Positions 3,273-31,920 of a DNA stretch of 32,896 bases are shown one piece after another; position 1 is the first letter of the stretch, and every line of letters begins with the position of its first letter. The notes under the pieces are model-generated. The model saw only the letters and a program-made list of their open reading frames with translations. It was not told the origin of the DNA and did not search any database. Origin of the DNA: Prolixibacteraceae bacterium (GTDB lineage: Bacteria; Bacteroidota; Bacteroidia; Bacteroidales; Prolixibacteraceae); assembly GCA_029975525.1 (NCBI GenBank), contig JARKOX010000201.1, forward strand, positions 1 to 32,896, in the 5' to 3' direction. A program made the position numbers and the translations under genes.

Positions 3273-3337
3273 AATAACGCAATTCTCAATAAAAGTGAGG
3301 CCCGGAACGGGAACAATCCTTCCGGATGAGTGAAAAG

Positions 3338-3375
3338 GAGGCTGTCTGAAAAGAGTCAGGCAGCCTCACTTTTTT
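3338..3375 (+). terminator. Rho-independent terminator after the small secreted protein gene
   Basis: A 12-bp stem (5' arm 3338-3349, 3' arm 3356-3367, one G-U pair) with a 6-base loop is followed by ACTTTTTT. This is a strong intrinsic terminator. It lies inside a longer reading frame that would extend the fucosidase upstream to 3330, which argues against that longer start. A second, competing pairing is described under findings. Confidence 0.8.
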
Positions 3376-3509
3376 ATACCGTCTCTACTTTCGGCTGTTT
3401 TCAAAGCCAAAACTCAAAATCTCCATATTTCGCTGCGGAAGAGCTTCCTATCTATTGTCCCTTCCGCCGGAATCTTTTAATTTTATCCACTTCAACCAAA
3501 ATAATTACG

Positions 3510-5597
3510 ATGAAACCAACTTTTCCTATTCTGCTGTTTCTGACCGTGCTGTTTACAGCCTGCCGGCACACGCCCCCGCCGGCGCCGTGTGGTCCGCTTC
3601 CTTCCGAGCGACAGCTGGCCTGGCACCAGCTCGAATTTTATGCCTTCATCCATTTCAACATGAACACGTTCACCAACATGGAATGGGGCATGGGCAGCGA
3701 AAAACCCGAACTGTTCAACCCCACTGAGCTCGACTGCCGCCAGTGGGCCCGCGTGTGCAAGGAGGCCGGCATGAAAGGCATTATCCTTACCGCGAAACAC
3801 CACGACGGTTTTTGCCTGTGGCCGTCGGCCTACACCGAACATTCCGTCAAAAACTCCCCCTGGAAAGCGGGAAAAGGAGACGTGGTGCGGGAACTGGCCG
3901 AAGCGTGTAAAGAGTACGGGCTGAAGTTCGGTGTTTACCTGTCGCCGTGGGACCGCAACCATGCCGACTATGGAAAGCCGGAATACATTACCTACTTCCG
4001 CAACCAGCTGCGCGAACTGCTCACCAACTACGGCGAGGTGTTCGAAGTGTGGTTCGACGGCGCCAACGGCGGCACCGGCTGGTATGGCGGCGCCAATGAA
4101 GAACGGCGCATCGACCGAACAACCTACTACGACTGGGAGAACACCTATAAAATTGTCCGTGAACTGCAGCCCGGGGCAGTCCTCTTTTCCGATGCCGGCC
4201 CCGACATCCGCTGGGTAGGAAACGAAGAGGGCTGGGCACGCCCCACCAACTGGTGCCTGCTCAAACGCGACGATTTCGCCCCCGGCGTTGTGGATAACCT
4301 CGAACATCTCCGCGCCGGACAGGAGGACGGGACCCACTGGCTGCCTGCCGAAGTGGATGTCTCCATCCGTCCGGGATGGTACTACCACCCGGCCGAAGAC
4401 CACCGCGTCAAAACCCTGCCGCAGCTGCTCGACATCTACTACCATTCGGTAGGCCGCAACGCCTCGCTCCTGCTCAACTTCCCGGTTGACACCCGGGGGC
4501 TGATCCATGAAAACGATGCCGAACAGGTGTTGAAGCTGGCCGCAGCCCTGAAAGCCGACTTTGCAACTGACCTGGCAGCCCGAAAACCGGTCTCCGCCTC
4601 GAATGTGAGGGGGAATGCCCGTAAATACCAGGCCCAAAATGCCACCGACCACAATCCGGACACCTACTGGGCTACCGACGACAGTGTACGACAGGCCTCC
4701 TTCACCATCGACCTGCAACAGCCAACCCCGTTTAACCGTTTTCTCGTGCAGGAATATATCCCACTGGGGCAGCGGATAAAAAAATTCCGGGTCGAGGCCA
4801 TGGTTGACGGCGCCTGGCAAACGGTAGCCGAAGAGACCACCGTCGGCTACAAACGAATCCTGCGGCTGCCAACCGTTACAGCCACCCAGGTCCGCTTTAC
4901 GGTCGACGAGGCCAAAGCCTGCCCGCTGATCGCCAACATCCAGGTATTTCTGGCGCCCAAAGTACTCGAATCGCCCGTGATTACCCGCAACCAACAGGGA
5001 ATGGTGACCATTTCGGCCTTCGACGACGGACTCGACCTCTATTACACAACCGACAATTCCGAGCCGAATCCCTCCGCTGAAAAATATGACAGCAGTTTCC
5101 TGCTCAACCTGAAAACGACCGTCAACGCAATAGCGGTAGATCCGCGCACCGGCCAAAAAAGTCCGGTAGCCAGCTGTTTTTTTGACATTCCGAAGACCAG
5201 CTGGAGCTTGCTGGGTGATCCCGGAAAAATGGCGCAGGCCGCTGCCATCTTCGACGGAAATGCCAGCACCGCGCTGTTGATCAGCCAGCCGCTGCCGGCA
5301 GACTTTGTCATTGACCTGGGCGAAACCCTGCCGGTGACCGGGTTCTCTTACCTGCCGCCCCAGGGACGCGGAAACCCCGGAACAATTTTCAACTACGAAT
5401 TTTATGTGAGCAGCGACAACCGCAACTGGGGAAAACCGGTCGCTGCCGGCGAGTTTGCCAACATCCAGAACAGTCCGGTTTTACAGGAAGTCAAATTCGG
5501 ACCGGTCACCGGCCGTTTTGTAAAACTGCGTGCCCTTTCAACGGTTTCCGGCCAGCAACACGCCGGAATTGCCGAATTCGATATTATAACGCCATAA
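3510..5597 (+). CDS. GH29 alpha-L-fucosidase lipoprotein with C-terminal F5/8-type modules
   Basis: This 695-residue enzyme should hydrolyse terminal alpha-L-fucose from glycans by a retaining mechanism. The start is the ATG at 3510, which gives a clean lipoprotein signal (FLTVLFTAC, Cys18); the in-frame ATG at 3330 would begin inside the upstream terminator. The GH29 barrel covers about residues 35-340: WHQLEFYAFIHFNMNTF, LTAKHHDGFCLWPS, FGVYLSPWDRN, then EVWFDGANGG, where Asp183 is the probable nucleophile. The EVWFDG-type context fits the GH29 subfamily with 1,3/1,4 preference, but this is an inference. Next come a discoidin/F5-8C-like module (NATDHNPDTYWAT, about 360-490), a chitobiase-C-like strand module (GLDLYYTTDNSEPN, about 500-560) and a second F5-8C-like module (about 570-695). 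The M28 peptidase gene follows after 60 bp and a hairpin. Confidence 0.93.
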   Translation: MKPTFPILLFLTVLFTACRHTPPPAPCGPLPSERQLAWHQLEFYAFIHFNMNTFTNMEWGMGSEKPELFNPTELDCRQWARVCKEAGMKGIILTAKHHDGFCLWPSAYTEHSVKNSPWKAGKGDVVRELAEACKEYGLKFGVYLSPWDRNHADYGKPEYITYFRNQLRELLTNYGEVFEVWFDGANGGTGWYGGANEERRIDRTTYYDWENTYKIVRELQPGAVLFSDAGPDIRWVGNEEGWARPTNWCLLKRDDFAPGVVDNLEHLRAGQEDGTHWLPAEVDVSIRPGWYYHPAEDHRVKTLPQLLDIYYHSVGRNASLLLNFPVDTRGLIHENDAEQVLKLAAALKADFATDLAARKPVSASNVRGNARKYQAQNATDHNPDTYWATDDSVRQASFTIDLQQPTPFNRFLVQEYIPLGQRIKKFRVEAMVDGAWQTVAEETTVGYKRILRLPTVTATQVRFTVDEAKACPLIANIQVFLAPKVLESPVITRNQQGMVTISAFDDGLDLYYTTDNSEPNPSAEKYDSSFLLNLKTTVNAIAVDPRTGQKSPVASCFFDIPKTSWSLLGDPGKMAQAAAIFDGNASTALLISQPLPADFVIDLGETLPVTGFSYLPPQGRGNPGTIFNYEFYVSSDNRNWGKPVAAGEFANIQNSPVLQEVKFGPVTGRFVKLRALSTVSGQQHAGIAEFDIITP

Positions 5598-8404: not shown

Positions 8405-11400
8405 ATGAAAATCCCTCACTTCAATCTGAATGGCGCGCGGAACCTGCTTTCCATCACGACGGACGCGCCGGCCCCCTCACCCAGCCGCCGGAAATTTGTC
8501 AAAACCCTTGGACTTGGTGCAGTGGCCATCACCCCTGCCGTAAATTCGCTGAAGTCGGTCACCCTGGAGCCGTTTACCGTTCAAAACGGCAACAACCGTC
8601 TGCAGTTTTTACGACACGGCATGGTCGCCTGGGAAATTGCCCCGGAGCGTTTTGCCCCCGGCGCACAGTTTGCCATTCACCAGCTGGAAAACGAATGGAG
8701 GTTTTCGCTCGAAAAGGCATCCTATCCCGGAACCCTGCCCCTGTTCAGCTTTTCCGGACGCATTTTCAGGGAGGAGGGCGCCTGGCAACTGGAAGCCCGC
8801 CTCCCCGAATTCGGCATTCAGTCCAAAATCGATCTGCTGGACTGGCTGGACGGGGTTCAATCCCTCAACTCGCCGCTTTTGCCGCCCCGGGAAATTTGTC
8901 GTCCCGGCGAGGGAGCCCTCCTGCAGATAACCGGCCCGTTTCGCTGCCGGCTCAACGCCCAGTGGCTCCTGGCGATGGAAACAGACCGCCAGGCAGAACT
9001 GGAATACTGCGGAAACCGTTTCCATACCTCAACAATATTGCTGCAGCTGCACAACAGTCGTTCGCTGCGCTTCCTCCATCCCGTTTCTGAAAACGGAACC
9101 CTGATCACCCTGCCCGGTTTTCCGCAGTGGAACAGTTTTACCGAAAAAATCTCCCAAAACGGGCGCTCCGGGTTTACTGCCGACCACGCCCCGGTTGACC
9201 TGCAGCTGTTTACCGGCAAAACCAGCCGGCAGCGGCCGGTTGCTGTTTTGTGGACCCACCAGCCTGCCCGTCCGCTGGCGCTGCAGACCGTTTTCCGGGA
9301 TCCGGTCAGCTTTGCCGGTTATTTTTTCGGAGCTTGGTTTGCCGCCGGCCGGCAGCCGCAGTTTTACCTTTCCGCACGCCTTGGCGCAGAGGGGCAGTGG
9401 GTCAGCAACGAACTGGGCGCTTTCCGCCTGGCCGGCACCCCCGCCCTCCCCGACCTGGAAGCATTCGGCACCGGCTTTTCGATCGACGAGGAGATCCTGG
9501 AGCCGCGTCTGCACGCTTTTCAACCGGTTATTGGCGACGCACAAACACTGGTTTCCCTCTTCCAGGATCCGCCCCGCGTGCGCATCCAAACCCAGCAGCC
9601 GGTCAAACGGACAGTAACAACACCCACCCGGGCGGTAAAACAGCCGGAAAGAACCTCCGCCACCGAACAAAAACAGGAAGAACCACCGCAACCACAACGC
9701 ACCCCCCAGACGACGGTCCCGGCAGAGCAATCCCCCACGCGGCAGGAACCCGTCCGGAACCAATCCAAAATTGAAGTGGAGTTTGACCAGATCAGGTTTC
9801 GCCCGAAGCAGGCGCTCTCCATCCGGGTGTTGCGCCCCGAAGACCTGATCTGGCTCGAATTTGAGTTTCACAATTTCAGTTTCTCCAACCGGGGACAATC
9901 GGCTTATCTTGAACTCGAAAACCCGAAAGATCCCGGAGTGATTGTGGTCAGCTTTCCCACCCAGCACACCCTCGAACAGGCGTTTTTCGAAACCACCAAT
10001 ATCCCTTCTGATTCGACCAACGAACCGGTTAACCTGCCGGCCAAACACCTGCGGGCCCGCAAAAGCCGGCTGGTTTACGAGCTGGAAGCCGGGCATCCGG
10101 GTTTTCCGCTTATCCTGACCGAGCTGCTTGACTGGAAAAAATTTAAGCTCCGCGTACATCCGCGGGCGTGGATCAAAATTCCACAGCCTGGCAAAATCAA
10201 ACCGGGAGCTTTTACCCTCAGCACCTCCCGAACAACTTTGCCACGCGAAACGATCAGCTACCTCGACAGCAACTCCAAAGATTACAGCCTGCGGATGGCG
10301 CAGTCTTCAAAAAACAGGGCCGGACAACTGGCGCTTTACAACGAAACACAACTGCAAAAAGTGCTGGCTCCCGAAGCGGTAGCCTCACTTCGTCCCTCTT
10401 TCGACATCGGGTCGCTCAGGCGGGTCGATCTAAAAACAGGCCCCATCCCGCCACTGAGTACTTCGATCGAGGCGCCCGCCCTGATGTATATCTCTCCCAA
10501 CCAGGTAAACGACTTCTATCACCGGGTGGAAACTTCCTTCAGAAATGTGGAAGAACAGCGCGAAACCACGCAGGTCTTGTCGAGTCAGCTGCGGGTGCTC
10601 GACCCGCTGGCCTCCAACAAGGGGGAAATTATCGAACTGTGGCACACTGCCCTGGGAATTAAACTCAACAACCGGCAAACCTCGGCGCTCAGCCTGCAGG
10701 CGCTCAAAACCATCCGTGCCCTGTGGGCTTTCGATGCCAAAGAAGATTACAAAGCCGATGTGGAACGTAACCAGCCTTTTATGGCCTCACTCGATGCCAA
10801 CAACCGCCACAAACTGGTACACACCACGTCGAATTACCAGATTCCGGGGTTTACCCCGTTTCCGGTGCCGGTAAAAAAACTGATGCTCACCACACTGGGC
10901 GCTTACCTGGACTGGCATGCCTTTTTCGATGTGCCCGCCCCGGCCGACACCTGGCTCAACATCATTGAATGGGAACACCTGGCAACGCTGGGCCGCGACC
11001 ATTATGTAAAAGTGGTGGAAGAGGGCTACCTCTTTCCGTTTGGACATCGTGCCGCCGTAGTAAAAGTCACCGAACGCAAATTTCACCGCGAAACCCGCGC
11101 CGCAGTCAACCGCCAGCGGATGTTCATCGTGGTGCTCGAAAAAGAGGTTTGGTACGACCGTAACGACCCGAAAGGCGATTTTATCCGCTTTCCCTTCCAG
11201 TCGGTGCGGATTGAAAACGACTACACCCCCAATATCGATAACCCGGCCAATTCAACGCTCATCACCGTCCCCCCCTCTTCGGGTAAACTACAGGTGCGGC
11301 CGCTGCAAATGCGTGCAGCCGGCAGCAGCGGAAACAGCGCCTACAACTTTTACATCAATGTGGGCGGGAAAGGGTTCCCGTTCGACCTGACCCTGACCGA

Positions 11401-13288
11401 CAAGGAAGGCCGCGAACAGGTAGTACGCATGCCGCTGGTCTTTGTGGAAACCCGGATCGGGCGCCTGCCCGGCCTAGCCCAGCAGGTGATCGACCAATAC
11501 AACCCCAACAAAGCCTACAACGAAACCGCCTTTTCCGGACAGGAGGTTGCCTATTCGGAGTACCTGGTAGATGGCGACACGGCCTTCGAAACCGAAACCC
11601 TCACTTTTGGCGGGCAGCTCTATCCGGCGCCCGGCGAAGCCGACCTGAAGTTTCATCCCGTGATGCAGTCGGCCAACGTTTACATCCGGCAAGTGGACGA
11701 ACTGACCGGTGTGCGCCAACCGGCAACCATTCAACTGGAAGACGACAACAACCCGGGACAGGTGTTTGCCAGCGTGGCCGGCGCGGTGGTTGATTTCACC
11801 GGCGGCTCCGACAAATCGGGCGGCTTCCTGTCGCCCAACATGGGCATCAACGCACTCAGCAAACTGCAGGGACCGGTTGGCGGGAAAATCAACGACCTGA
11901 AAAACCTCGTTTTCAAACCGCTGGAATTCTTCGAAGCGCTGGACAACCTTCCCGTAGCCAAAATATTTGGCGTCATCAACCTGTTCGACCTGCTGGGAAT
12001 CCTTGATCTGAAAGGCAGTTTCGACGGATTGATAAATCAGGTGAAAACCCTGCGCAAAGAGATTGAAAATCTGAAAATTGAAATCCTCTTCCTGGAAAAC
12101 CAGGCCAAAGAGAGTGGCGAAAATCTTCAGACTCAAATTAACCAGCTCCGGGAAACTATTACCGGAAAAGTTAGCGACCTGATGAACACGCTGACCAGCA
12201 GCACTCCCAAAATTCCAAACTTTAAAACCTGGTTTACCGAATCGGCATTTTATGCCGAATACAAATGGCAACCCGATTTCAAAGAGAGCCCCATCGTGGT
12301 GATCCCCGATTTGCTAGCTGTAAAAGTGGCCAATCCCAAAAATGCGCTGACCATCACCACCACCTTCGAAAAGCCGTTTGACAGCAGTAAAACGGCCGCC
12401 CTGAAAGGGAAAGCACGTTTCGAAAAGTTCGGGATCGACATTGTGCCGCTGCTGGCTGTAAACTTCAACTACATGGAGTTCCGCAGCGGCTCGGCGGAAA
12501 AAACCGATATCAAGGTGGATATCGATGCCGCAAACCCCATCGAATTTAAAGGAGTGCTCAGCTTTGTCAACAACCTGCAAAGCATTATTCCCAGCACCGG
12601 TTTTTCCGAAGATGGGCCCTACATCGACATCAAACCGACCGGAGTAACGGCCGGTTTCGATATCAGTGTCCCCAATGTGGAAGTCGGCATTTGTATGATT
12701 TCCAACATCAGCCTGGGGGCCAGCGTCACCCTGCCGTTTACCGGCGCCCCGCTGACGCTGGGTTTCAACTTCTGCAAACGCGAAAACCCGTTCCTGCTCA
12801 CGGTTTCCTGTTTCGGCGGAGGGGGCTATTTTATGATGGTCACCACGCTGCATGGGATCCAGTCACTTGAAGCGGCTTTCGAATTTGGCGCCGCCATGTC
12901 GCTCAATGTAGGCGTGGCATCGGGTGGCGTTTCGGTGATGGGCGGGTTCTATTTCAAAATCGAAAAAGTTGAAAACGACAAGGGCGAAATGGTGGAACAA
13001 GCCACACTTACCGGCTACCTGCGCATCAACGGCCACTTGTCGATTCTGGGGCTGATCAAGGTGTCGCTCGAATTTTACCTGGCGCTCACTGCCGTAATCG
13101 TAGATGGGAAAGTCTCCAAAATGGAGGGCGTGGCTACCCTGAAGGTAAAAGTGGAGGTGCTCTTTTTCAGCAAAACCGTATCGGTTACCGTGCGGCGCGA
13201 GCTGGCCGGCGCCGATGCCGACCCGACTTTCAGGGAGATGATCGAACCCGAAGACTGGCAGGAGTACTGCCTCGCCTTTGCCAGCTGA
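8405..13288 (+). CDS. Giant Tat-exported protein of unknown function (1627 aa), first gene of a pair
   Basis: I cannot name this protein. The N-terminus carries a twin-arginine motif, SRRKFVK with Arg28-Arg29, then a short hydrophobic stretch TLGLGAVAITPAV, so export in folded form by Tat is likely. Regions: an N-terminal beta-rich part (about 50-395), a Pro/Gln/Thr-rich linker (about 398-453), a long mixed part (about 455-1160), a coiled-coil-like stretch (about 1208-1260, QVKTLRKEIENLKIEIL) and a distinctive C-terminal block (about 1430-1627) with NPFLLTVSCFGGGGYF, EFGAAMSLNVGVASGGV, LTGYLRING, LEFYLALTA and VEVLFFSKTVSVTV. From memory, near-identical spacing of these blocks occurs in large unnamed proteins of other phyla; I could not check this. 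No enzyme motif or membrane helix is evident besides the signal. The next gene starts 42 bp downstream, so the two are almost certainly co-transcribed. Confidence 0.85.
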   Translation: MKIPHFNLNGARNLLSITTDAPAPSPSRRKFVKTLGLGAVAITPAVNSLKSVTLEPFTVQNGNNRLQFLRHGMVAWEIAPERFAPGAQFAIHQLENEWRFSLEKASYPGTLPLFSFSGRIFREEGAWQLEARLPEFGIQSKIDLLDWLDGVQSLNSPLLPPREICRPGEGALLQITGPFRCRLNAQWLLAMETDRQAELEYCGNRFHTSTILLQLHNSRSLRFLHPVSENGTLITLPGFPQWNSFTEKISQNGRSGFTADHAPVDLQLFTGKTSRQRPVAVLWTHQPARPLALQTVFRDPVSFAGYFFGAWFAAGRQPQFYLSARLGAEGQWVSNELGAFRLAGTPALPDLEAFGTGFSIDEEILEPRLHAFQPVIGDAQTLVSLFQDPPRVRIQTQQPVKRTVTTPTRAVKQPERTSATEQKQEEPPQPQRTPQTTVPAEQSPTRQEPVRNQSKIEVEFDQIRFRPKQALSIRVLRPEDLIWLEFEFHNFSFSNRGQSAYLELENPKDPGVIVVSFPTQHTLEQAFFETTNIPSDSTNEPVNLPAKHLRARKSRLVYELEAGHPGFPLILTELLDWKKFKLRVHPRAWIKIPQPGKIKPGAFTLSTSRTTLPRETISYLDSNSKDYSLRMAQSSKNRAGQLALYNETQLQKVLAPEAVASLRPSFDIGSLRRVDLKTGPIPPLSTSIEAPALMYISPNQVNDFYHRVETSFRNVEEQRETTQVLSSQLRVLDPLASNKGEIIELWHTALGIKLNNRQTSALSLQALKTIRALWAFDAKEDYKADVERNQPFMASLDANNRHKLVHTTSNYQIPGFTPFPVPVKKLMLTTLGAYLDWHAFFDVPAPADTWLNIIEWEHLATLGRDHYVKVVEEGYLFPFGHRAAVVKVTERKFHRETRAAVNRQRMFIVVLEKEVWYDRNDPKGDFIRFPFQSVRIENDYTPNIDNPANSTLITVPPSSGKLQVRPLQMRAAGSSGNSAYNFYINVGGKGFPFDLTLTDKEGREQVVRMPLVFVETRIGRLPGLAQQVIDQYNPNKAYNETAFSGQEVAYSEYLVDGDTAFETETLTFGGQLYPAPGEADLKFHPVMQSANVYIRQVDELTGVRQPATIQLEDDNNPGQVFASVAGAVVDFTGGSDKSGGFLSPNMGINALSKLQGPVGGKINDLKNLVFKPLEFFEALDNLPVAKIFGVINLFDLLGILDLKGSFDGLINQVKTLRKEIENLKIEILFLENQAKESGENLQTQINQLRETITGKVSDLMNTLTSSTPKIPNFKTWFTESAFYAEYKWQPDFKESPIVVIPDLLAVKVANPKNALTITTTFEKPFDSSKTAALKGKARFEKFGIDIVPLLAVNFNYMEFRSGSAEKTDIKVDIDAANPIEFKGVLSFVNNLQSIIPSTGFSEDGPYIDIKPTGVTAGFDISVPNVEVGICMISNISLGASVTLPFTGAPLTLGFNFCKRENPFLLTVSCFGGGGYFMMVTTLHGIQSLEAAFEFGAAMSLNVGVASGGVSVMGGFYFKIEKVENDKGEMVEQATLTGYLRINGHLSILGLIKVSLEFYLALTAVIVDGKVSKMEGVATLKVKVEVLFFSKTVSVTVRRELAGADADPTFREMIEPEDWQEYCLAFAS

Positions 13289-13330
13289 CCGAAAATCCAA
13301 ACTGTATAACCAGAAGAAATCAGATACATC

Positions 13331-16300
13331 ATGTCACAGGAAATTGTATTCACCACTCTGCCCCATCAGCGGACAACCATCGACGGAACGCCGTTCCTGA
13401 AACTTTCAGTTTTTGCAACCATCCGGCTCAAACCGCCCAAAGAAACCACCCTGGCACAATTTGAAGAGCTGCTGGCGTGGCCCGAAAAAATCCTGAATGC
13501 CCGGTACAAATTCAGGCTGGGAGATGGCACCGAGCTGGAAGCCCAACTGCTGAAAGACAAGATCGATCCGCAACTGTTTCGCAATATCTTCCTTCCCGAA
13601 ATCAGGGTAAACGCTTTCGAACAGGAAAACCTGACGGCCAAACGCATCTATTCATTTCCGGTGCAGCACATCCGGGATTTTGTCCTGCAAAATTACCGGC
13701 AGGTGGCGGTTGAAAGCCCTACCCGGCTGGTTTCGGCCGACAAATTTGTGGACCTCTCACGGTTTGGGTCAGTATCGCGGGTGCAGCTGAACGAGCAGGT
13801 GATCAACCGGGCTGAAACCCGGCAGCTGCGGCAGCCCCTGAAAATTGCCAGCCTCACACTGAAGGATGAGAGCAGCGACCGCCAGCTGCGAACGGTTTTG
13901 CAGCGCGACAAATTCCAGCGTTTTTCCCCGCAGATGAACCCCAAACAAGACTTCACCCAACTGCGGCAATTTCACCGCCTCGACGCCAAAATCAAAACCG
14001 GCGCCCGCCTGCAACTGAAAAAACCGCAGTTCGAATTTCACGACATCCTGTCGGTGGTCAGCAGTTATCCGCAGATGATGCGTAAACTGGGGTTTGTCCT
14101 CGATTTCCTGATCCCCTACCAACCGGCCATTCCTGCCAACGGCACCATCCTGCTGCTACCCTCTTCAATCGAATTCAGCGAACCCGAAACCACCCTGTCG
14201 GTTCCGCCCACCGCGTACCAGCTCACCCCGGCCGGATTTTATGCTGCCGACCGCAACAACTCAATCTTCCGGCAGGGATTTGTAAAAATCAACACCCCCG
14301 GATTTTCGGTGGTGCAGGTCGATGCCGACGGCGCTGCCCTGAAAACCCACAACATGACGGAAAATAAAGTGCAGGAGGTGGCCAAGTTTTACCAGATACG
14401 ATCCGAAATTGCCGTAAGCCGGAACCTGCAAACCAAAACCATCGAAGAAGCCGAACCACCGGCCGACGAGGGACTGCCCACCATGCGTTCGGCCGGGATT
14501 GCTGTCATCAAAAACGGCATGGCCGAACACCTCTTCAGCCGTTTTGCTGCCAACCAGCAGCTGCAACCCAACTTAATTGACAATGCCCGGCTGGTAGCCC
14601 CGCTGAAACTGAGAATCCCCGATTTCTCCCTCTATTCCGACGATCTGGTCCAGGCTTACCGCATGGACATTGCCTACGAAGACAATCCGTCGAAATGGTA
14701 TTCGCTCCACCATCGGCGCGATGAATACACCTGGTTCGACGCACAAAACACCCCGCATCCGGTGGAAGGTACGGATCCCGACGAAGGATACATCGAACTG
14801 GGAATTGCGGAAGACCCCGACGATCCGGACGATGTTTTTGTTTCGGAAACGCTGGCCCGCTGGGAAGGCTGGAGCCTTGCCGTGGGAAAACCCGGATACG
14901 CCATCAATGAAGCAGACGACTACAAACTGCAACCGGGCGAAACCGTCAAACGCGACTTTGTCAACACCTCCAAAACAGCGGAGATGAAGAAATACACCTT
15001 CGATCCAACGCTGGAATTTAAGGTAAATGCACAATCGAAAATCGTTCCGGGCACCTTGCCCCGCCTGCGCTTCGGAAAAGATTACCGGGTACGCATCCGC
15101 ACGGTCGACCTGGCCGGAAACAGCGTTGCGCCCGAACATCAATCCGAAACGCCGGCCGAAACCCTGCGCGCCAACATTCGTTACCTGCGCTACGAACCGT
15201 TGTCGAGTCCTATCCTGCTGGCTGGCAACCGCCTGAAAGACGGTGAGTTTCCCGAACGGATGGTGATCCGCAGCAACTTCGACCGCTCGGCAAAAGATTA
15301 CGAAAGCAGCTATCCCGTAGATGGGAAAAAATTCGACGACTTCGCCCAACGTTACCTGCTTCCGCCCAAAAATAGCCAGGCGATGGCCGAAACACACGGC
15401 ATGTTCGAGAAGGCATTCGGGAACAACCCCGCTGCTGCACAGGAGATTTACAACCTCATCACCAGCCACGAAGGGCTGTACCAACCAGCCTCCAACAACC
15501 AGGAAAAGATCTACCAACCTTCGGAAGTGGAAATCATCTACCTGCCCGACCCGATGGCTGCCGGCGTGGCGCTTTTTGTGGCCGAGGGGTACGACTATTC
15601 GCACACGCAGGAGTTCAAACTGCGGATGTTCAGCTTTTTCAGCAACCAGGAGCTTTCGCCCGAGCAGACCAACGACAAAATTCCGGAAGCGTGGTACCAG
15701 GCCCGTCCGTTGCGGATCCGTCTCGAAGAGGGCGACCTGAACACCAGCTGGAACAGCACAGAACGTATCTTCACCCTCTTCCTGCCCAAAGGTCTCCGCA
15801 CCCGTATCAAATTCAGCACCTTCTGGCGCGAGCAGGACTTCAAACAGTTGTCGGCCATCTGGCAGATGATCAAAGAGGAAAATCCTGGCAACCTGGCCGA
15901 ACTGGATAAACTGGCCCGCGCGGGACAACACTGGATGCTCAGCCCGTCACGCGAAATGGAGCTGGTACATGCCGTTCTGCAACCGGTGGAAGCTCCCGAA
16001 ATCAAAGCCCTTTTGCCCGACCGCGACTTTGGCCAGACGTTCGTGAAGATCAACACCCGATTTAAGGTGCACGGCGAAAGCACCGAAAAAGCAGAGTTTC
16101 AGGCCAGGTGGACCGAACCGGTTGACGACGCCATTTCGGTGAAGATCGGCGAACAGCAGGGACGCAACGCCATTTCCGATATCGACATCCAGTATCCCGA
16201 CGAAGTGATCACCCGCGGCACAATTCCCGAGCCCAAGCAGATCCCGCCGCACTTCCAGCTGAAAGGGCCGCTGAAACTGCAGGCCATTCCGGTACAACAG

Positions 16301-17680
16301 TTTCAGCCGCGTACCAAAGTGGAATTTGAGCGGGACCCGCAACCCGAATCGGCTCGGGTCAACAGATCCTACCAGGTGCAATCTGTCCGCTTCCGGGAAA
16401 TGGAACAGGCCAGGCTTTCCGCCCCCAAAACCCTGGTCAACCGTGTCAAATTCGACATTGAAGCGTCGCGTTTCAGCTTTCTCAAAAAAATCGGCCTGCG
16501 CCTGTTACCGCTCGAACACTCCTTTGGCGACACCAAACACCGGTGGGTCGACTACAAACTGGTGGCAGCCTCACGCTACCGCGACTATTTCAGCAAAATC
16601 CTGAAAAATTACCCCGAACTGACCACCGTCCGCGAAAGCGAATGGTGGGAAAAGGTGAACATCCTCAGTTCGGCACGCCCCAAAATGCCACAACCCGATT
16701 ATGTAATTCCCACTTTCGAATGGCGCAAGACCCAAAGCGCCGACGCCGTGCGGCATCAGCGTTTAGGCGGCGGATTGCGGATCTTCCTGAAAAGGCCGTG
16801 GTTCTCGTCGGGCGCCGACGAAATGCTGGCGGTGGTTCTGCCCCCGCAACCCTCCTCTGCGCGGTTTGCGCTGATGGCCACCCAACCCGGCTACACCGAC
16901 TACTACACCCATTGGGGAATTGACCCGCTGCTCTTCTCGGTGCCGCCCGAAAATCTCTCTCCCCGCCCCGAAGATTTCCGGCTGAATCCGGTGACCGACG
17001 AAAACCTGCAATATCCCGACCTGGAGAACGGCCGCGCCAACATCGTGGCCTATCCCGTCAACTTCGACGAAGAGCGGCAGATGTGGTTCTGCGATCTTGC
17101 CATTGATCCCAAAACCATGTATTTCCCGTTTGTAAAACTGGCGCTGGCCCGCTACCAGCCCTATTCGGTGAAGAAAGAGGGGGCCGATGTGTGCCTCTCG
17201 CCGGTGGTTTTTGCCCCGATGATGCAACTGGTCCCCGAACGGCAAACCACCCTGCGGTTTAAGTCAGACGACCAAAACTCACGCTTCACCCTCACGGTGG
17301 AAGGCACAATCTACAACGAACGGCAGGCCACCTGGGGAAATTACAGCTTTTTGCGGATCTCATTTTTAGACAGCCGCATCGCCCAGCCGATTTTCGGGGT
17401 GATCGACGATGGCGTCAACGAAAAGAAGCTGACCGACGAAGGGACCGAGATCAAGATCACGCAGGCCAACGTAACCAACAACCGCTTTTCGGTTTCCAAA
17501 GAGTTCAGGTTGCCACGCGAATACAAAACCGCGCCATTCCAGGTCGTCATTGAAGAATACGAACGTGGCCCGGTAAAAATACCGCTGGCCGGCCAGTACA
17601 GGGAGTTGCTGGAACAGTCGGAAGAGACCGACCGGCTGATCTATGCCGACGTCTTTAAAATCAATGAAGTGGAGAAATAA
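13331..17680 (+). CDS. Giant protein of unknown function (1449 aa), second gene of a pair
   Basis: I cannot name this protein. It has no signal peptide and no membrane helix. Recognisable blocks, which I recall from large unnamed bacterial proteins in other phyla (not searched): LKLSVFATIRL with LLAWPEK near the N-terminus; AYRMDIAYED and ARWEGWSLAVGKPG (about 430-520); YRVRIRTVDLAGNS (about 582-596); PERMVIRSNFD; LPPKNSQAMAETHGMF (about 676-692); IIYLPDPMAAGVAL (about 736-750); LGGGLRIFLKRPWFSSGADE (about 1144-1163); YYTHWGIDP; and YFPFVKLALARYQPYS with CLSPVVFAPMMQL (about 1260-1300). The TVDLAGNS stretch resembles Ig/fibronectin-like strands. The start ATG at 13331 follows the upstream stop by 42 bp. 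It ends before a small hairpin at 17819. Composition matches the upstream partner and neighbours, so no sign of recent transfer. Confidence 0.85.
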   Translation: MSQEIVFTTLPHQRTTIDGTPFLKLSVFATIRLKPPKETTLAQFEELLAWPEKILNARYKFRLGDGTELEAQLLKDKIDPQLFRNIFLPEIRVNAFEQENLTAKRIYSFPVQHIRDFVLQNYRQVAVESPTRLVSADKFVDLSRFGSVSRVQLNEQVINRAETRQLRQPLKIASLTLKDESSDRQLRTVLQRDKFQRFSPQMNPKQDFTQLRQFHRLDAKIKTGARLQLKKPQFEFHDILSVVSSYPQMMRKLGFVLDFLIPYQPAIPANGTILLLPSSIEFSEPETTLSVPPTAYQLTPAGFYAADRNNSIFRQGFVKINTPGFSVVQVDADGAALKTHNMTENKVQEVAKFYQIRSEIAVSRNLQTKTIEEAEPPADEGLPTMRSAGIAVIKNGMAEHLFSRFAANQQLQPNLIDNARLVAPLKLRIPDFSLYSDDLVQAYRMDIAYEDNPSKWYSLHHRRDEYTWFDAQNTPHPVEGTDPDEGYIELGIAEDPDDPDDVFVSETLARWEGWSLAVGKPGYAINEADDYKLQPGETVKRDFVNTSKTAEMKKYTFDPTLEFKVNAQSKIVPGTLPRLRFGKDYRVRIRTVDLAGNSVAPEHQSETPAETLRANIRYLRYEPLSSPILLAGNRLKDGEFPERMVIRSNFDRSAKDYESSYPVDGKKFDDFAQRYLLPPKNSQAMAETHGMFEKAFGNNPAAAQEIYNLITSHEGLYQPASNNQEKIYQPSEVEIIYLPDPMAAGVALFVAEGYDYSHTQEFKLRMFSFFSNQELSPEQTNDKIPEAWYQARPLRIRLEEGDLNTSWNSTERIFTLFLPKGLRTRIKFSTFWREQDFKQLSAIWQMIKEENPGNLAELDKLARAGQHWMLSPSREMELVHAVLQPVEAPEIKALLPDRDFGQTFVKINTRFKVHGESTEKAEFQARWTEPVDDAISVKIGEQQGRNAISDIDIQYPDEVITRGTIPEPKQIPPHFQLKGPLKLQAIPVQQFQPRTKVEFERDPQPESARVNRSYQVQSVRFREMEQARLSAPKTLVNRVKFDIEASRFSFLKKIGLRLLPLEHSFGDTKHRWVDYKLVAASRYRDYFSKILKNYPELTTVRESEWWEKVNILSSARPKMPQPDYVIPTFEWRKTQSADAVRHQRLGGGLRIFLKRPWFSSGADEMLAVVLPPQPSSARFALMATQPGYTDYYTHWGIDPLLFSVPPENLSPRPEDFRLNPVTDENLQYPDLENGRANIVAYPVNFDEERQMWFCDLAIDPKTMYFPFVKLALARYQPYSVKKEGADVCLSPVVFAPMMQLVPERQTTLRFKSDDQNSRFTLTVEGTIYNERQATWGNYSFLRISFLDSRIAQPIFGVIDDGVNEKKLTDEGTEIKITQANVTNNRFSVSKEFRLPREYKTAPFQVVIEEYERGPVKIPLAGQYRELLEQSEETDRLIYADVFKINEVEK

Positions 17681-17818: not shown

Positions 17819-17842
17819 TTCCTCCGTAGAGGAAACTTTTTT
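17819..17842 (+). terminator. Terminator after the giant gene pair
   Basis: A 6-bp stem (TTCCTC at 17819-17824, GAGGAA at 17829-17834) with the tetraloop CGTA is followed by ACTTTTTT. It lies 139 bases past the second giant gene and 25 bases before the GT39 start, and is compatible with intrinsic termination of the pair's transcript or with attenuation of the GT39 gene. Confidence 0.5.
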
Positions 17843-17866
17843 CAACTCTGACAACAACAAACAGCT

Positions 17867-24077: not shown

Positions 24078-25241
24078 TTATGGTTGCACAACCGGCGTAC
24101 AAATCCGGAAATTATCGAAATAGGTTGCAAACTTGTCGTAAACCTGCTTGTTGGTTTTAAACACCAGCTGGAAGTCGTTGATCGAAGCGACTCCCAGGCC
24201 GATGGAGCTGAGCGGGACGGTAACGGTCATCCAGCCATTGGTGGTAAAGCCGGTGGTACGGTAGGCCAGCCACTCCTGCGGGCGGAAGTTGTAGGTTTTA
24301 CTTCCGTTGAGGGTAACCAGCAGCGTGGCATGGTCTTCGGCGCCCAGCGCGTCGCTCCAAACCCAGGGTTCCTTTGCATTGACTTCGAACTTGAGCACTT
24401 TACCGGTGAAGTCCACGTCGTTGTAACCATAATCGAACCAGCAGGTTGAGGTAACCCAATCGTTGTTCCAACTGCTCGGAGGCAATTCGGTTCCCACCAC
24501 GTAACCATAATTTCCGTTGAGGGATTCGCCATCCGAACGCATGGGCATTCCGCCCCAACAGGCGATCGATCCCCAGCTGGTGGCCGGCTTGTCGAAATCG
24601 AAAAGCCACATTCCCGGATCCCGGTATTTGAAGGTCGAAACGGTGGTACCACCTTCGCCGGTTACGGTAATTAACGATCCGGCAGTTGCCCCGGCAGGAA
24701 CAGTAACCGTAATTTCGGTCTCCTTCACCTCAACAATTTGCGCCGGCAAGCTGCCAAATTTTACCTCGTTGATAAAATAGAAGAAATTCCCCCGCACTTT
24801 GGTGTTACTTCCCGGAGGCGCCATTTCGTTGTAAAGCCCGGAGACGACCGGTTTGGGCAGTTCTACCCGAAAATCGGTTTCATAAACCAATCCTTTGCCC
24901 GTGACCAGCTTGACTTTGTTGATCATTTCGCCCGGCAACTGATCGGGGATTGCACAAATAATCGAGGTGGAGGTGACAAAATTGGGGTTCAGCACCGCCT
25001 GCAGGTCGTTGAACCAAACCTCCTGTACATTCTGCAGGTTCTGCCCGACAATGGCGACATACAGGCCAAACGACCCGGATGTGATGGTTGAATCCTTCTC
25101 CACCACACGAAATTTGGTTACAACGGGCATCACATCCTCTTCGTCGTTCTCGCAGGAGTTTAAAACCACTCCGGCCATCAGCACAACAAACAGAAGCAGG
25201 ATCCCGATGAGCACTCTTTGAATATTATTTTTGTTTTTCAT
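24078..25241 (-). CDS. IPT/TIG-domain surface glycan-binding lipoprotein (SGBP)
   Basis: A 387-residue accessory protein of a Sus-like system; it would sit on the cell surface and hold ligand for SusCD. Start at 25241 (MKNKNNIQ) gives a lipoprotein signal with Cys30 in LNSC; the acidic run ENDEED after Cys fits the Bacteroidota surface-export signal. Two IPT/TIG immunoglobulin-like domains follow (about 38-125: VAIVGQNLQNVQEVWFND; about 125-205: GNFFYFINEVKFGSLPAQI and VTVPAGATAGSLITVTG). The C-terminal half is rich in aromatic residues (MWLFDFDKPATSWGS, WVTSTCWFDYGYNDVDF) and resembles the SGBP-B carbohydrate-binding module. It lies 130 bp after susD; a GCAGC/GCTGC hairpin near 25273-25289 may set its expression below that of susCD. 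Ligand is not known. Confidence 0.85.
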   Translation of the reverse strand: MKNKNNIQRVLIGILLLFVVLMAGVVLNSCENDEEDVMPVVTKFRVVEKDSTITSGSFGLYVAIVGQNLQNVQEVWFNDLQAVLNPNFVTSTSIICAIPDQLPGEMINKVKLVTGKGLVYETDFRVELPKPVVSGLYNEMAPPGSNTKVRGNFFYFINEVKFGSLPAQIVEVKETEITVTVPAGATAGSLITVTGEGGTTVSTFKYRDPGMWLFDFDKPATSWGSIACWGGMPMRSDGESLNGNYGYVVGTELPPSSWNNDWVTSTCWFDYGYNDVDFTGKVLKFEVNAKEPWVWSDALGAEDHATLLVTLNGSKTYNFRPQEWLAYRTTGFTTNGWMTVTVPLSSIGLGVASINDFQLVFKTNKQVYDKFATYFDNFRICTPVVQP

Positions 25242-25371
25242 ATTCCTATTTTTTATTGGTTTACAATGGTCTGCAGCCCGAAGAGCTGCCTGACAGAAAT
25301 TCACCAGCCGCAAGTTTTCCCCTTCCGGGTTGAACTATTTTCTGATGGCTCATTTCACCGCTCATTTCAAA

Positions 25372-27048
25372 TTACTCCATAATGGAAAAATCGAACGGAA
25401 CCGGATCTTTGGTCAGATTGGGGTTGATCGAGATATCCACTTCGGGGAATGGCAGGATGAAAGTTGCGTTCACCGGGGTAAACCGCTGGCTGTTGAGCGT
25501 AACCGGCTGGCTCTGGTCCTTGTAATAGGCCGACAATCCGTTATAGGAGCCACGTTCCTGCTGGGCCAGCAAGTTGATTGCCAGCTGGGGTTCGAAATAA
25601 TGCAGCCGCACATAATCGTACCAGTTGTCGCCTTCGAAAGCCAGTTCGAGCCTTCTCTCCTTGAATACATCCATAAATGAGATAGTGGTAACCGGAACAT
25701 AATTTTTAATGGCGCGGGCGCGTACTTTATTAAAAGCGGCCAGCGCATCGGCATTGGTAGTGGTGGAGTTGACCCCGGGCAGGAAAGATTCGGCATAGAC
25801 CAGGTAAATATCGGCCAGACGAAGCAGATGGGTGCTGAGGCTCGTCTTCATAAAATCGGACGGAACGCCGCCGGTTTCCGCAATATGATCCTCTTTGCTG
25901 CCCACAATGTGCTTGACGGCAAAAGCGCCCGTTGGGCTGGCAAAAACACTCTCGCTCGACCAGTCGCACAGGAACCCCCCTTTGTTTCTCCACCAGTTCA
26001 TATAACGGTCGCCATACATCATCATGGTAGCTTTCCGGCGGGCATCGTCATTTTTGCGGGTCAGATTTTTCACATCCTCCCCAAAAGCGTTGATCAGGTC
26101 GATGGACGGGCCAGACCAGGTTCCCCAGCCATCGCCATGTCCGGTGAAATTCTGAACGGCCAGGTCGGCCTGCATGGCATTTTGCGGCCCCCAGTCGGAC
26201 GCTACTACCCAGTGCCAGGAGAGCAGGTTCTCGGGATTGCGGTTACCTTTGGATATGGTAAACAGATCGGCATAGTTTTCAGCCAGTTTCAGGCCGCTTT
26301 CATTAATCACCTTCCCGGCATATTCCCGGGCTTTGTCCAGGTCGGCCTGGTCGCGGGTACCTGATTTACCCAATCCCGAACGGGTCAGGTAAACTTTGGC
26401 CAGCAGCCCGTAGGCGGTCCATTTGTTAATGCGCCCGGCAACGCCATCAACCGGAAGCAGATCAGCAGCTTTGGTGAGGGTGCGGATAATATATTCATAA
26501 ACGTCGGCAGCCGGATTTTTCTTGATTTGCGTGGCCGTGCCGTCGTTGATTAACTTTGAGTTGCTGTGGATAATGGGCACATCATGAAACATGCGGACCA
26601 GATAAAAATAGGCCATTGCTTTCCAGACCATCGCTTCGCCGATCACAGCATTCTTCACGGCCGGCGTACAATTGGGGCCGGCTTTCTCGGTGACGTTTTC
26701 AATCACGCTGTTGCAATAGGCCACTGCCGTCCAAACCGAGTTGGAAGCATTCAGCAGGTCGGTTGTGGACCCGGTTACCGAAAAGCTGAAGAACGGATCG
26801 GTACCGCCTTTGTTGAAGTTTCCCGACATCATGTCGCCAATGGCCAGAAAAGCCCGCTGGTAGTCGAACCACACGCCGCCGTAAAGCGGATTGGCCGCCA
26901 TGTACAACTGCTGATCCGTGTTGTAAAAACTATCGGTGGTGTAAGCATCTTCCGGCGGACGATTCAGAAAATCCTCACTACATGCGCCACCCATCAATAA
27001 AAGAACAGACAGCGTAAATATTCTGATGGTTCTATTTAACTTTCTCAT
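25372..27048 (-). CDS. susD: SusD/RagB-family nutrient-binding lipoprotein
   Basis: A 558-residue outer-membrane lipoprotein that forms the lid over the SusC channel and captures the ligand. The signal ends in LLMGGAC (Cys23), and the SusD N-terminal hallmark CSEDFLNRPPEDAYTTDSFY follows, with NPLYGG and later WKAMAYFYLVRMFHDVPI, the TPR region YGLLAKVYLTRSG, and the C-terminal FMDVFKERRLELAFEGDNWYD, LRLADIYLVYAE blocks. Length is normal for the family. It starts 17 bp after the susC stop, the usual tight coupling. Symbol is used in the family sense and does not imply starch. Confidence 0.93.
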   Translation of the reverse strand: MRKLNRTIRIFTLSVLLLMGGACSEDFLNRPPEDAYTTDSFYNTDQQLYMAANPLYGGVWFDYQRAFLAIGDMMSGNFNKGGTDPFFSFSVTGSTTDLLNASNSVWTAVAYCNSVIENVTEKAGPNCTPAVKNAVIGEAMVWKAMAYFYLVRMFHDVPIIHSNSKLINDGTATQIKKNPAADVYEYIIRTLTKAADLLPVDGVAGRINKWTAYGLLAKVYLTRSGLGKSGTRDQADLDKAREYAGKVINESGLKLAENYADLFTISKGNRNPENLLSWHWVVASDWGPQNAMQADLAVQNFTGHGDGWGTWSGPSIDLINAFGEDVKNLTRKNDDARRKATMMMYGDRYMNWWRNKGGFLCDWSSESVFASPTGAFAVKHIVGSKEDHIAETGGVPSDFMKTSLSTHLLRLADIYLVYAESFLPGVNSTTTNADALAAFNKVRARAIKNYVPVTTISFMDVFKERRLELAFEGDNWYDYVRLHYFEPQLAINLLAQQERGSYNGLSAYYKDQSQPVTLNSQRFTPVNATFILPFPEVDISINPNLTKDPVPFDFSIME

Positions 27049-27065
27049 AGTGTTCCGTTTTTCGA

Positions 27066-30000
27066 TTAAAATGTAACATTCAAACCAAATGAATAGATCC
27101 TGGGTGAAGGATAGCGACCGTTGTCAAGACCGAAAACAAAGGGGTCGAGGGTATCCTGCCCCACTTCCGGGTCAAAGCCGGTGTACTTCGTAAATGTCAC
27201 CAGGTTTTGGATATTGGTGTACACTTTCAGATCCTGTATTCCAAATCTTCCGATCAGGCTTTTGGGGATGTAGTAGCCCAGGTTCAGGTTCTTGATCCGC
27301 AGGAAGGAACCATCTTCGATATACCGGTCGGACATGCGGGTGTTCTGGTTGGGATCGGCCCAGTGCGAACGCGGGATATTGGTTTGGGGATTGCTCACCC
27401 GCACATTGCTGGCATCCTGCCACCATTCGTCGAATCCGCCCGACGGGTAAACCTTGTTGGGATCGATCGGCTCCAGTTTGGCCCGGCCGGTAACCAGTCT
27501 GAGCTGGTTATCCCACTGGCTTTTCATGTCGCTGATGTTACGCCCGAAGTAGTTGAAAAGTTTGTTTCCGTACTGCCCCATCACAAACACCGACAGTTCA
27601 AATTTTTTGTAGCGGAAAGTGTTGGTCATGCCATACGAAAACTTGGGCTGGGAAGAACCCAGGACCGTGCGGTCGTTTTCATCGATAACTCCATCGGGCA
27701 CACCATCGGGTCCACTGATGTCCTTAAACTTGATATCGCCCGGGAAGACGGTATTGTCGCGGTTGAACACCGGGTTTCCGTTGTTGTGACCTTGTAGCCA
27801 GCCGGTTTGGGGCTGTCCAGAATGTCCTGCATATCCTGATAGATGCCTTCCACCTGGTAGCCAAAGAAATTTCCGATGGGCTGACCGGCTTCGGTAACCG
27901 TTACCAGGTCGAACCACTGGGCATATCCATACAGTTTGGCATCGGAAGTTCCGATATTGATCAGCTTATTCCGGTTGAAAGTCAGGGACAGATCGGTGTT
28001 CCACTCAAACAGGCCGGTAAAGTTTTGGGACGAGAGCGAAATCTCAAGCCCTTTGTTTTCGATCTCTCCAAAATTTCCCCAGGGCGCTTTCATGTTAAAC
28101 GCCGGGTTTCCGCTGGTCCCCATGTAGGAGGGCAGCTGCATCTGCATCAGCATGTCTTTCGAAATTTTGCGGTAAGCATCCACCGTCAAATCAATTCTGC
28201 TGTTGAAAAAGGAGAGATCCAGTCCAAGATTGGTCTGTTCCGAAGTTTCCCATTTGATATTGGGGTTGGCAAAGTTGGAAACCCGGAATCCTTCTCCGAG
28301 GTTGGTCGGCAACTTGGCCAGCGCCGATCCCCAGCGATATCCGCCGATGTTCTGGTTACCGGTTTGTCCCCATCCGATGCGCAGTTTCAGGTTGTTGATC
28401 ACCGGCTTTACCGACTCCATAAAAGGTTCTCCGGAAATCCGCCACGACCCGGCAGCCGACGGGAAATAGGCCCAGCGGTTGTTGGGGCCGAAATTTGATG
28501 AGCCGTCGGCGCGGTAAGTAAACGTCAGGTAATACTTGTCGTGCAAATTATAATTCACACGGGTGTAATAGGAGTTCATGGCACCGGAACCTCGGCCGGA
28601 ACCCACCGCCATCGATTTGATATCGCCCAGCCCGGGTTCATGGATATCGTTGGTAGGCAGTGATTTTGACACTCCGCTCATATATTCATACTTCCACTCC
28701 GAAGCTTCCTGCCCGACCATTGCGGTAAAATGGTGTATATCGGCCAGGTTGAAATTGTAGGTCAGGTAATTTTTAAACTGCCAGAACTGGTTTTGGTTGT
28801 ACCGTTTGCTTGCCGAGTTCTGATCATTCCGCTGGGAGCCATACTGGTAGGTTGGCTGGAAAGAATAGCCGTTGGTAAAACCAAGGTCGCCCCCAAACTC
28901 TGTACGGAAAGTCAATCCTTTGATAATACTCACATCGGCATAAAGGTTTCCCAGCAGGCGGGTACGGGTCATGCGGTTTTCTTCATCCAGGGCCTTGGCG
29001 ATTGGATTAACGCGGCTCACCGCTCCTTCGCCAACGGCTGTTGCATAGGTTCCGTCGAAATTGCGGACCGGTACATCCGGCGTCTGTTTGGCCGCCGTTT
29101 GGATAATCCCGCCCGTCTGATCAAAGAGGCCAATGTGGTCTTCTGTTTTTGACAACATCAGGCTGGTGCCCACCTTGAGCCATGATTTCATTTCGGAATC
29201 GACATTGGCCCTGAACGAAACACGGCTGAAGTCGGAACCGATTACCGTACCATCCTGTTGAAAGTAGCCGCCACTGAGGGCATACTGGGCCACATTTGAC
29301 CCGCCGGTAGCTGTGATGTTGTGACTTTGCATCGGAGCGGTGCGGAAGATTTCATTTTGCCAGTTGGTTCCTTCGCCCAACAGCGAAGGATCGGCAAATT
29401 CGGGACGAGGTACGCGCCCATTGGTTTCGGCAGCCAGGTCATTCTGGTATTCGGCAAATTCCCGCAGGTTCATCAGCTTGAGCCGTTCAACCTGCTGCTG
29501 TACCCCGTACATTCCTTCGTAAGTAAACTTGGCTTCATTGGCTTTTCCGCGGCGTGTGGTAATCAGCACCACGCCGTTTGCCCCGCGCGATCCGTAAATG
29601 GCCGTTGCCGAGGCGTCTTTTAAAATTTCAATCGAGATAATATCGGACGGATTGATACTGGAAAGCGCCGAAAAGGCTGTTTTTCCGCCGCCGCCGGCAG
29701 CTCCCAGCCCGACATCGTAAACCGAACCCAAACTGGAAGAAATCGGCACTCCATCAATAACATATAATGGTTCTGCATCGGCGTTGAGGGTTGAGGTCCC
29801 GCGAATGCGAATGGAGGTGGAAGAGCCGGGTTGCCCGGAGGTCTGAACTGCCGTAACGCCGGCAGCCCGCCCTTGCAAAGCCTGGTCGAGACCCGAACTG
29901 ATCGATCCTTTGACCGTGTTTTCGGAAACCGAAACGGAGGCTCCCGAAAGGTCGCCCTTTTTCATGTTGCCATACCCCACGGCTACCACCTCCTCAATGC

Positions 30001-30634
30001 CAATCGTCTGCTCTTCCATGACCACATTCAGGGAAGCCTGTCCCTTGTAGGCAACTTCCAGCGATTTCATGCCCACAAAAGAGAAAACCAAGGTTGCATT
30101 GGCCGGCACGTTCGGAAGATCAAAACTTCCATCGATATTGGTAGTGGTGCCGGTTGTGGTTCCTTTGATCACCACGGTTGCACCAATAACCGGTTCGCCT
30201 CCCGGAGTGGAAACTTTTCCCCGCACACGAGACTGTTGTGTGGCCGGAGTTTCAGAAGGTGAATTGATTTTGGTCAGTGCAATTTGCCGGTCTTTAATGA
30301 TGTAGGCAATATCGGTGCCGGCAAACAATTTATTAAGCACACTGGTAATCAACTCATTGTTGACCTCGATGCTGACTACCCGGTCCACGTCCACAACCAC
30401 ACCGTTATACATAAAATAAAATTCCGTTTGATCTTCAATGGTGTTAAGGACATTGCGAATGGTTGTATTCTTTTGATTAAGTGTTAACCGGGCAACTTGC
30501 GAGTAGGTTTCGGCCGCTGCACTGTAAAAAACACCACAGAACACGATCAGCAGTGTTAATCCCAGTGTGCGGAACTTTTTAAATCCCTGCCGCAGATCCC
30601 TGGCAGAGAAGTTCTTCTCAAAGTTTTTTCTCAT
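27066..30634 (-). CDS. susC: SusC/RagA-family TonB-dependent transporter with STN domain, frameshifted
   Basis: An outer-membrane TonB-dependent barrel that imports ligand caught by SusD and signals through its N-terminus. Domains: signal (about 21-41), STN secretin/TonB short N-terminal domain (about 48-121, LTLNQKNTTIRNVLNTI), carboxypeptidase-regulatory-like domain (about 136-212, RVRGKVSTPGGEPVIGATV), plug (EEVVAVGYGNMKKGDLSGA, then GSRGANGVVLITT) and barrel to the end (RIYSFGLNVTF). The first frame (from 30634) breaks near 27791-27796, after about 946 codons; the rest is in another frame. Restoring one C in the TAC-AAG stretch gives GYQGHNNGNPVF and one 1189-residue protein, normal for STN-bearing SusC. 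The break is either a sequencing error or a real inactivating mutation. The 164-bp gap before it holds no clear promoter. Confidence 0.85.
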
Positions 30635-30798
30635 AGTTTGTTAGATTAAATTAAATAATTCTGACTTCAGATACCTTTATTCAAGCAAGCATAAAAACAC
30701 TTGAGGATATTCATTCAGGAGGCGCCGCTCCCTTGTTTCTTCAAAAAGTCTGTTTCATAGGCTCTATTTTAGGTTAGAATTACGATCTGTCCGTTTAT

Positions 30799-31824: not shown

Positions 31825-31920
31825 AATGTGCGGTTTACTATTAGCCAATACACCGCAAAGTCCCCAAACTATTACCCGGTTATAAAAAAAATATGAGAAT
31901 TCTGAATTGACGGTCGAAGT

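Follow-up and report, generated by a model that had tools for sequence, protein, structure and literature searches.

A conserved pair of giant adjacent bacterial genes and the β-rich two-protein complex that it may encode

The stretch of DNA analysed here (hereafter, the window) comprises 32,896 nucleotides, positions 1 to 32,896 of contig JARKOX010000201.1, and stems from the assembly of a Prolixibacteraceae bacterium of the phylum Bacteroidota (GCA_029975525.1; 4.06 Mb in 304 contigs). It harbors two giant neighboring genes, which we refer to as P1 and P2. A first-pass annotation, made from the letters alone, had described them as genes of 1627 and 1449 codons lying 42 bp apart, without any enzyme motif but with a series of unusually dense motif blocks. 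The open frames are confirmed: both genes are intact and on the same strand, with a 42 bp spacer. All of the listed blocks were located, each at a single position, namely SRRKF (residues 27–31), FGGGGYF (1470), GVASGGV (1503), and VEVLFFS (1583) in P1, and TVDLAGNS (591), PPKNSQAMAETHG (678), YLPDPMAAG (737), RPWFSSG (1155), and ALARYQPYS (1271) in P2. The pair carries no name in any family database that we searched, and its nearest named relatives in phylogenetic trees are from Prolixibacteraceae.

The distribution of the pair was determined by a pattern plus tblastn scan over 84,980 species genomes, in which 443 stretches encode P2 relatives; the best 80 of these were fetched as loci. These 80 loci span ten phyla: Bacteroidota, Ignavibacteriota, Aminicenantota, Armatimonadota, Thermodesulfobacteriota, Myxococcota, Pseudomonadota, Chloroflexota, Bacillota, and Actinomycetota. 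The first-pass annotation had stated that Actinomycetota and other phyla share these blocks and their order, and this is borne out by the scan and by the alignments. In every locus with room for it (71/71), P1 immediately precedes P2 on the same strand, with a median gap of 26 bp, while the other nine loci begin within P2 at a contig edge. Co-occurrence is equally strict in an evenly drawn sample of 395 Bacteroidota genomes, where P2 is found in 18, P1 in 19, and both in 18 (Fisher p 3e-30), the match in the lone P1-only genome being divergent, partial, and at a contig edge. A P2 profile gave matches in 10 of 346 Actinomycetota and 5 of 349 Pseudomonadota genomes (each count including the carrier used as the centre). 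Among 61 relatives, carriage is patchy (8 carriers).

The two genes also share their history. Patristic distances for P1 and P2 correlate with r 0.93 (51 pairs), and the two trees have 33 of 48 splits in common. The ratio of nonsynonymous to synonymous substitution (dN/dS) falls between 0.05 and 0.14 for both genes in close pairs, a range from which selection on P1 and P2 is judged to be strong and purifying. Because the motif blocks belong to the best-conserved parts of the ten-phylum alignments, and given these ratios, they are far beyond chance. Most phyla, with Bacteroidota, Pseudomonadota, Aminicenantota, and Bacillota among them, come out as a single clade in either tree, and the pair therefore looks old and mostly inherited within phyla. 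Of the two terms offered in the first-pass annotation, "mobile or ancient", the tree topologies fit the second better. The first is mostly not upheld, although plasmids of Rhizobium, Sinorhizobium, Agrobacterium, Ruegeria, Cupriavidus, Diaphorobacter, and Streptomyces carry copies, and although both trees place an Arthrobacter pair as sister to a pair from a Chloroflexi bin, a grouping that fits either transfer of the whole unit or mis-binning. Apparent P1–P2 fusions were rejected, since the frames of 2,300–3,000 aa seen in GC-rich Actinomycetota are upstream read-through beside separate P1 genes.

Neither protein has a match worth the name in Pfam, NCBIfam, PHROGs, or PADLOC; in particular, no enzyme family was found in Pfam or NCBIfam, in line with the initial claim. 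A sequence search of the Protein Data Bank matched no solved structure, and a profile search of the same sequences gave only chance coiled-coil rows for P1 and none for P2. With the PADLOC models, P1 gave a single coiled-coil row (DruC, E value 0.057) and P2 no row, so a known anti-phage defence system was rejected. A known secretion-system component was likewise rejected for want of a family match in these four libraries, as was a phage structural protein, for which there is no family match and none of the 50,697 phage records contains P2. Among 2.9 million viral contigs in IMG/VR, a single one does contain P2, near a terminase-like reading frame (L203:116-1699). Literature text searches, which took in few subscription papers, returned no earlier description of the pair. 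Confinement to one genus, lack of co-occurrence, and a confident match to a known enzyme or secretion component were all looked for, and none was found. It is very likely that P1 and P2 form one physical complex, and probable that this complex is without enzyme activity. The features of the two genes are collected in Table 1.

Table 1. Features of the P1–P2 locus in the window
Feature	Position	Strand	Remarks
P1 (giant gene 1)	8405..13288	+	1627 aa, 181 kDa, stop TGA; no known family
P2 (giant gene 2)	13331..17680	+	1449 aa, 167 kDa, stop TAA; no known family, no export signal
Twin-arginine motif SRRKF (P1 residues 27–31), then modest hydrophobic stretch	8483..8497	+	Motif kept by most Bacteroidota P1s
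P1 N-terminal extension (residues 1–468)	8405..9808	+	From comparison with shorter P1 homologues
P1 middle region (residues 469–1206), mostly β	9809..12022	+	Predicted with high confidence for the most part
P1 helical hairpin / coiled coil (residues about 1207–1265)	12023..12199	+	From the model
P1 C-terminal amphipathic antiparallel strands, barrel-like (residues 1397–1600)	12593..13204	+	Holds FGGGGYF, GVASGGV, VEVLFFS
P1 conserved C-terminal helix, W..YC.AFA (residues 1615–1626)	13247..13282	+	From alignment and model
P2 most conserved C-terminal block (residues 1061–1279)	16511..17167	+	GDT..R, RPWFSSG, ALARYQPYS; from alignment
Terminator-like hairpin and T run, between P2 and next gene	17819..17845	+	Such sites are no commoner in this stretch than by chance

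The predicted structures agree with the earlier description of the pair as β-rich. P1 was modelled over residues 469–1627 with an alignment of 53 sequences (predicted local distance difference test, pLDDT, 80; predicted template modelling score, pTM, 0.68). In the model, long antiparallel strands make up residues 1397–1606 and can be superposed on outer-membrane β-barrels, including CymA (Z 13.6, 201 residues, root-mean-square deviation (rmsd) 5.0), OmpF (Z 11.5, rmsd 3.6), and FhaC, with Z 11–14. Between residues 1413 and 1600, hydrophobic positions take turns with polar ones in most of the strands, and the resulting faces are shared by 16 monoderm and 37 diderm sequences; the strands are 10–19 residues long, with glycine-rich turns. 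Unlike outer-membrane barrels, however, the domain is embedded in a protein of 1000–3000 aa with a Tat-type (twin-arginine translocation) signal or none. Actinomycetota, Bacillota, and Chloroflexota also have it, with its hydrophobic face unchanged, and it is thus not restricted to diderms; moreover, a C-terminal helix replaces the terminal aromatic strand. None of the 53 P1 rows has an aromatic last residue, and the helix ends with Ala, Ser, or Gly in most of them. Most monoderms have no outer membrane, and outer-membrane barrels are normally exported by Sec, not Tat. Because of its monoderm occurrence and its conserved terminal helix in lieu of an aromatic-ended strand, P1 is unlikely to be an ordinary outer-membrane barrel, and a ligand-holding, membrane-docking, or P2-contacting role is more likely. 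Weaker Foldseek rows comprise LptD, MTP, and P47/OrfX. The rows for the TULIP-type P47/OrfX (PMC6791001) and for the lipid-transfer fold of MTP are weak; one fully hydrophobic sheet face is a common trait, but the row probabilities are 0.1–0.5, TM is at most 0.11, and there is no sequence link. The odds that this barrel of P1 is a binder of a hydrophobic ligand or a membrane are about even. For P1, a viral fold library returned weak autotransporter-like rows only.

The N-terminal extension is missing from the short P1s found in Bacillota, Chloroflexota, and some Actinomycetota, which start at an R-P-E/D-D-L block. The giant P1s of a divergent Pseudomonadota branch (L157, L158, L198-L201, L205, L206) have a helical insert of 700–900 residues before the C-terminal β domain, in place of the hairpin.

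For P2, a compact Actinomadura homologue (residues 26–1225) was modelled in place of the window protein, giving a pLDDT of 85.5 and a pTM of 0.69. The model is an array of Ig/FN3-like sandwiches, with structural matches to fibronectin, contactin, alpha-2-macroglobulin (A2M), and complement (best Z 8.2). The top Foldseek rows are A2M from E. coli and Salmonella and complement C3/C5, but as the TM-scores are only 0.06–0.12 and the rmsd 20–50, the likeness lies in the string of sandwiches and not in the fold as a whole. In contrast to A2M and complement, P2 has a different domain plan and neither a thioester nor an A2M family match: no A2M family domain was found in P2 with Pfam, and the thioester motif CxEQ is present in 0 of 54 P2 and 0 of 53 P1 rows. 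This motif is also missing in some bacterial A2Ms. Invariant polar residues in P2 include H237, D446, R444, D593, H880, D1067, R1150, E1164, and D1198. No enzyme match was obtained by sequence or fold in the regions tested, the fold search having barely covered the P1 middle region.

Export signals were assessed at the N-termini of P1 and P2 with a simple rule for Tat-type signals, i.e., an RR pair followed by a hydrophobic stretch. The P1 sequence conforms in 27 of 36 Bacteroidota, 4/4 Aminicenantota, 1/1 Ignavibacteriota, 1/1 Armatimonadota, and 2/4 Actinomycetota, and never in Bacillota, Chloroflexota, main-clade Pseudomonadota, or Thermodesulfobacteriota. These counts are approximate because RR motifs can be seen by eye in several of the non-conforming P1s, for example, LSRRDFLKC in Desulforhopalus. 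The giant Pseudomonadota P1s (2,300–3,300 aa) open with textbook Tat signals. None of 70 P2 homologues has an RR signal or a strongly hydrophobic N-terminus, so the initial assignment of a Tat motif to P1 and of no export signal to P2 holds. Where P1 bears the signal, its export by Tat is probable, and by analogy with known hitchhiker complexes it seems reasonably likely that P2 is exported along with it. HybOC hydrogenase and PaoABC are such complexes, PaoABC, at 135 kDa, being described as one of the largest Tat cargos, and the upper size limit of the pathway had not been determined (PMC4273604). Like these, the pair has its sole twin-arginine signal on one partner, with the signal-less partner encoded next to it and presumably riding along. 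Unlike these cofactor enzymes, P1–P2 has no cofactor or enzyme family, and some of its lineages are devoid of any Tat-type signal. In Sinorhizobium meliloti, a tatA/tatE-family gene lies directly downstream of the pair on a conjugative plasmid (L158:24916-25083).

No third gene was found to recur around the pair across phyla, and a universal third component was rejected, the candidates being limited to a subset of carriers. These are a predicted outer-membrane barrel of 620–690 aa with a signal peptide, found in a subset of Bacteroidota and in Ignavibacteriae, and a second protein encoded beside it. The barrel gene lies directly after P2 or divergently upstream, mostly within 10 kb of the pair (L215:4423-9266, L214, L216-L219, L221, L058, L056, L057, L118). 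Its full-length form (E ≤ 1e-112, a threshold picked after the list was seen, the next match at 1e-107 being a non-carrier) occurs in 11 of the 395 Bacteroidota genomes, all 11 of them pair carriers (p 4e-17), while weak relatives are present in 161. At eight loci, the barrel gene is adjoined by a gene for a secreted Ig plus RCC1-propeller protein, identified with Pfam in six and by similarity in the rest.

Elsewhere, the surroundings vary. In the divergent Pseudomonadota branch, P2 is often followed by genes for secreted hydrolases. Close behind P2 are found genes for a trypsin-like protein (L198), an M35 metallopeptidase (L201, Ruegeria), VWA7_N (L200), and, by reading, a chymotrypsin-like protein (L188), and zinc-dependent phospholipase and patatin genes lie near the pair in Ruegeria and Rhizobium. 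On an Agrobacterium vitis plasmid, dpdE and dpdF, genes of a 7-deazaguanine DNA-modification system, lie close downstream (L157:25672-29206), and in Streptoalloteichus the sequence that immediately follows P2 is rich in repeats and resembles an in-frame translation of a CRISPR array (L132:15083-15487). Linkage to AlkD-like (Marinifilum), SRPBCC/GyrI-like, and CRISPR-like neighbors was rejected, as this context is conserved at the genus level only. The window itself also contains a minus-strand glycan-utilisation locus at 24081–31848, with a FecR anti-sigma protein, a TonB-dependent receptor with an STN domain, SusD, and a surface glycan-binding protein (SGBP_B-type domain), as well as an alpha-L-fucosidase with F5/8 C domains at 3330–5597.

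We tentatively propose that P1 and P2 form an obligate, non-enzymatic, β-rich carrier or scaffold complex, which is exported by Tat as a unit where P1 has the signal. In this model, the two-gene operon would yield the two obligate subunits of one large complex. P2 would contribute a chain of Ig/FN3-like β-sandwich domains acting as binding or scaffold modules, and P1 a β-rich middle, a helical spacer, and the C-terminal amphipathic barrel-like domain, whose one fully hydrophobic face would most likely hold a hydrophobic or lipid ligand or dock the complex on a membrane. In the signal-bearing lineages, i.e., Bacteroidota (as in the window), Aminicenantota, Ignavibacteriota, Armatimonadota, the giant Pseudomonadota clade, and some Actinomycetota, the complex would be assembled in the cytoplasm and then cross the inner membrane via Tat, with P2 riding on the signal of P1; its place of action would be periplasmic or at the outer membrane. 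It may, in some Bacteroidota, act together with the outer-membrane barrel and the RCC1-propeller protein. A fuller version of this model would have an ancient carrier of ~350 kDa, conserved in at least ten phyla, fold and assemble in the cytoplasm, leave it intact through Tat in many lineages with a hydrophobic ligand in the P1 barrel, and in some Bacteroidota pass this ligand to a dedicated outer-membrane barrel and RCC1-propeller partner; we consider this version rather doubtful. Several observations weigh against the proposal. The window P1 scores 14.3 bits against TAT_signal_seq (TIGR01409; residues 27–45), below the cut-off of 16.7, and a match to the outer-membrane barrel is absent from the window genome. 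By the RR rule, neither protein has a Tat-type signal in Bacillota, Chloroflexota, and main-clade Pseudomonadota pairs, and export is therefore not general; some Actinomycetota pairs are likewise without one, and the extracytoplasmic or surface location originally suggested is thus supported only where P1 carries the signal. The combined mass of 348 kDa would be more than twice that of PaoABC. All 42 genomes tested for TatC have it, as does the window genome, and since the 42 include pair-free relatives, it was rejected as a discriminator of carriers. Finally, the hydrophobic face of the modelled P1 barrel could be an interface with P2 instead of a ligand site.

Other explanations account for some of the same observations. 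The amphipathic P1 strands with their glycine-rich turns, the many lineages without an export signal, and the secreted hydrolase genes behind P2 would all suit a membrane-perforating or cargo-delivering system, in which P1 strands insert into a target membrane as a pore or docking device, P2 is a receptor-binding part or shell, the hydrolases are cargo, and signal-less lineages release the complex by lysis or another route. We regard this as unlikely, because most pairs stand alone, there is no toxin family match, the hydrolases are of different families and mostly confined to one divergent Pseudomonadota clade, and vertical conservation under purifying selection is unlike the rapid change of typical toxins. 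Slightly less probable still is a surface or S-layer-like adhesion or structural assembly, with P1 as a true outer-membrane barrel anchor and P2 as an exposed Ig-array stalk. The many outer-membrane barrels matched by the P1 strands, the P2 array with one S-layer row among its matches, the Tat-type signal, and the outer-membrane barrel neighbor in some genomes speak for it. It is at odds, however, with the presence of the same barrel in monoderm phyla, several of them signal-less, with a helical terminus unlike the aromatic-ended last strand of substrates of the β-barrel assembly machinery (BAM), and with the usual Sec route of such barrels.

An enzyme with an active site outside the known families, possibly shared by P1 and P2, is a somewhat more remote prospect. 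It would make sense of the many invariant polar residues in P2 and of the high-confidence structure of the P1 middle region, but those residues are spread along P2, and many invariant positions are W, G, or P, as structural conservation predicts; the searches by sequence and fold, where they reached, point the same way. A bacterial A2M- or complement-like protease trap is highly improbable: the top Foldseek rows for P2 and the protease genes adjoining some pairs are what it would predict, but the overall superpositions are poor, and neither the family domains nor the thioester motif is found.

The pair thus amounts to more than 3,000 residues encoded by two inseparable genes, under strong selection in hundreds of species from at least ten phyla. 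Cultured carriers, which include Marinilabilia, Marinifilum, Prolixibacter, Paenibacillus, Achromobacter, and Roseovarius, make its function directly testable. If the two proteins are exported jointly, the complex would be the largest Tat cargo known, far above the reported sizes, and the pair would test the upper size limit of the pathway.

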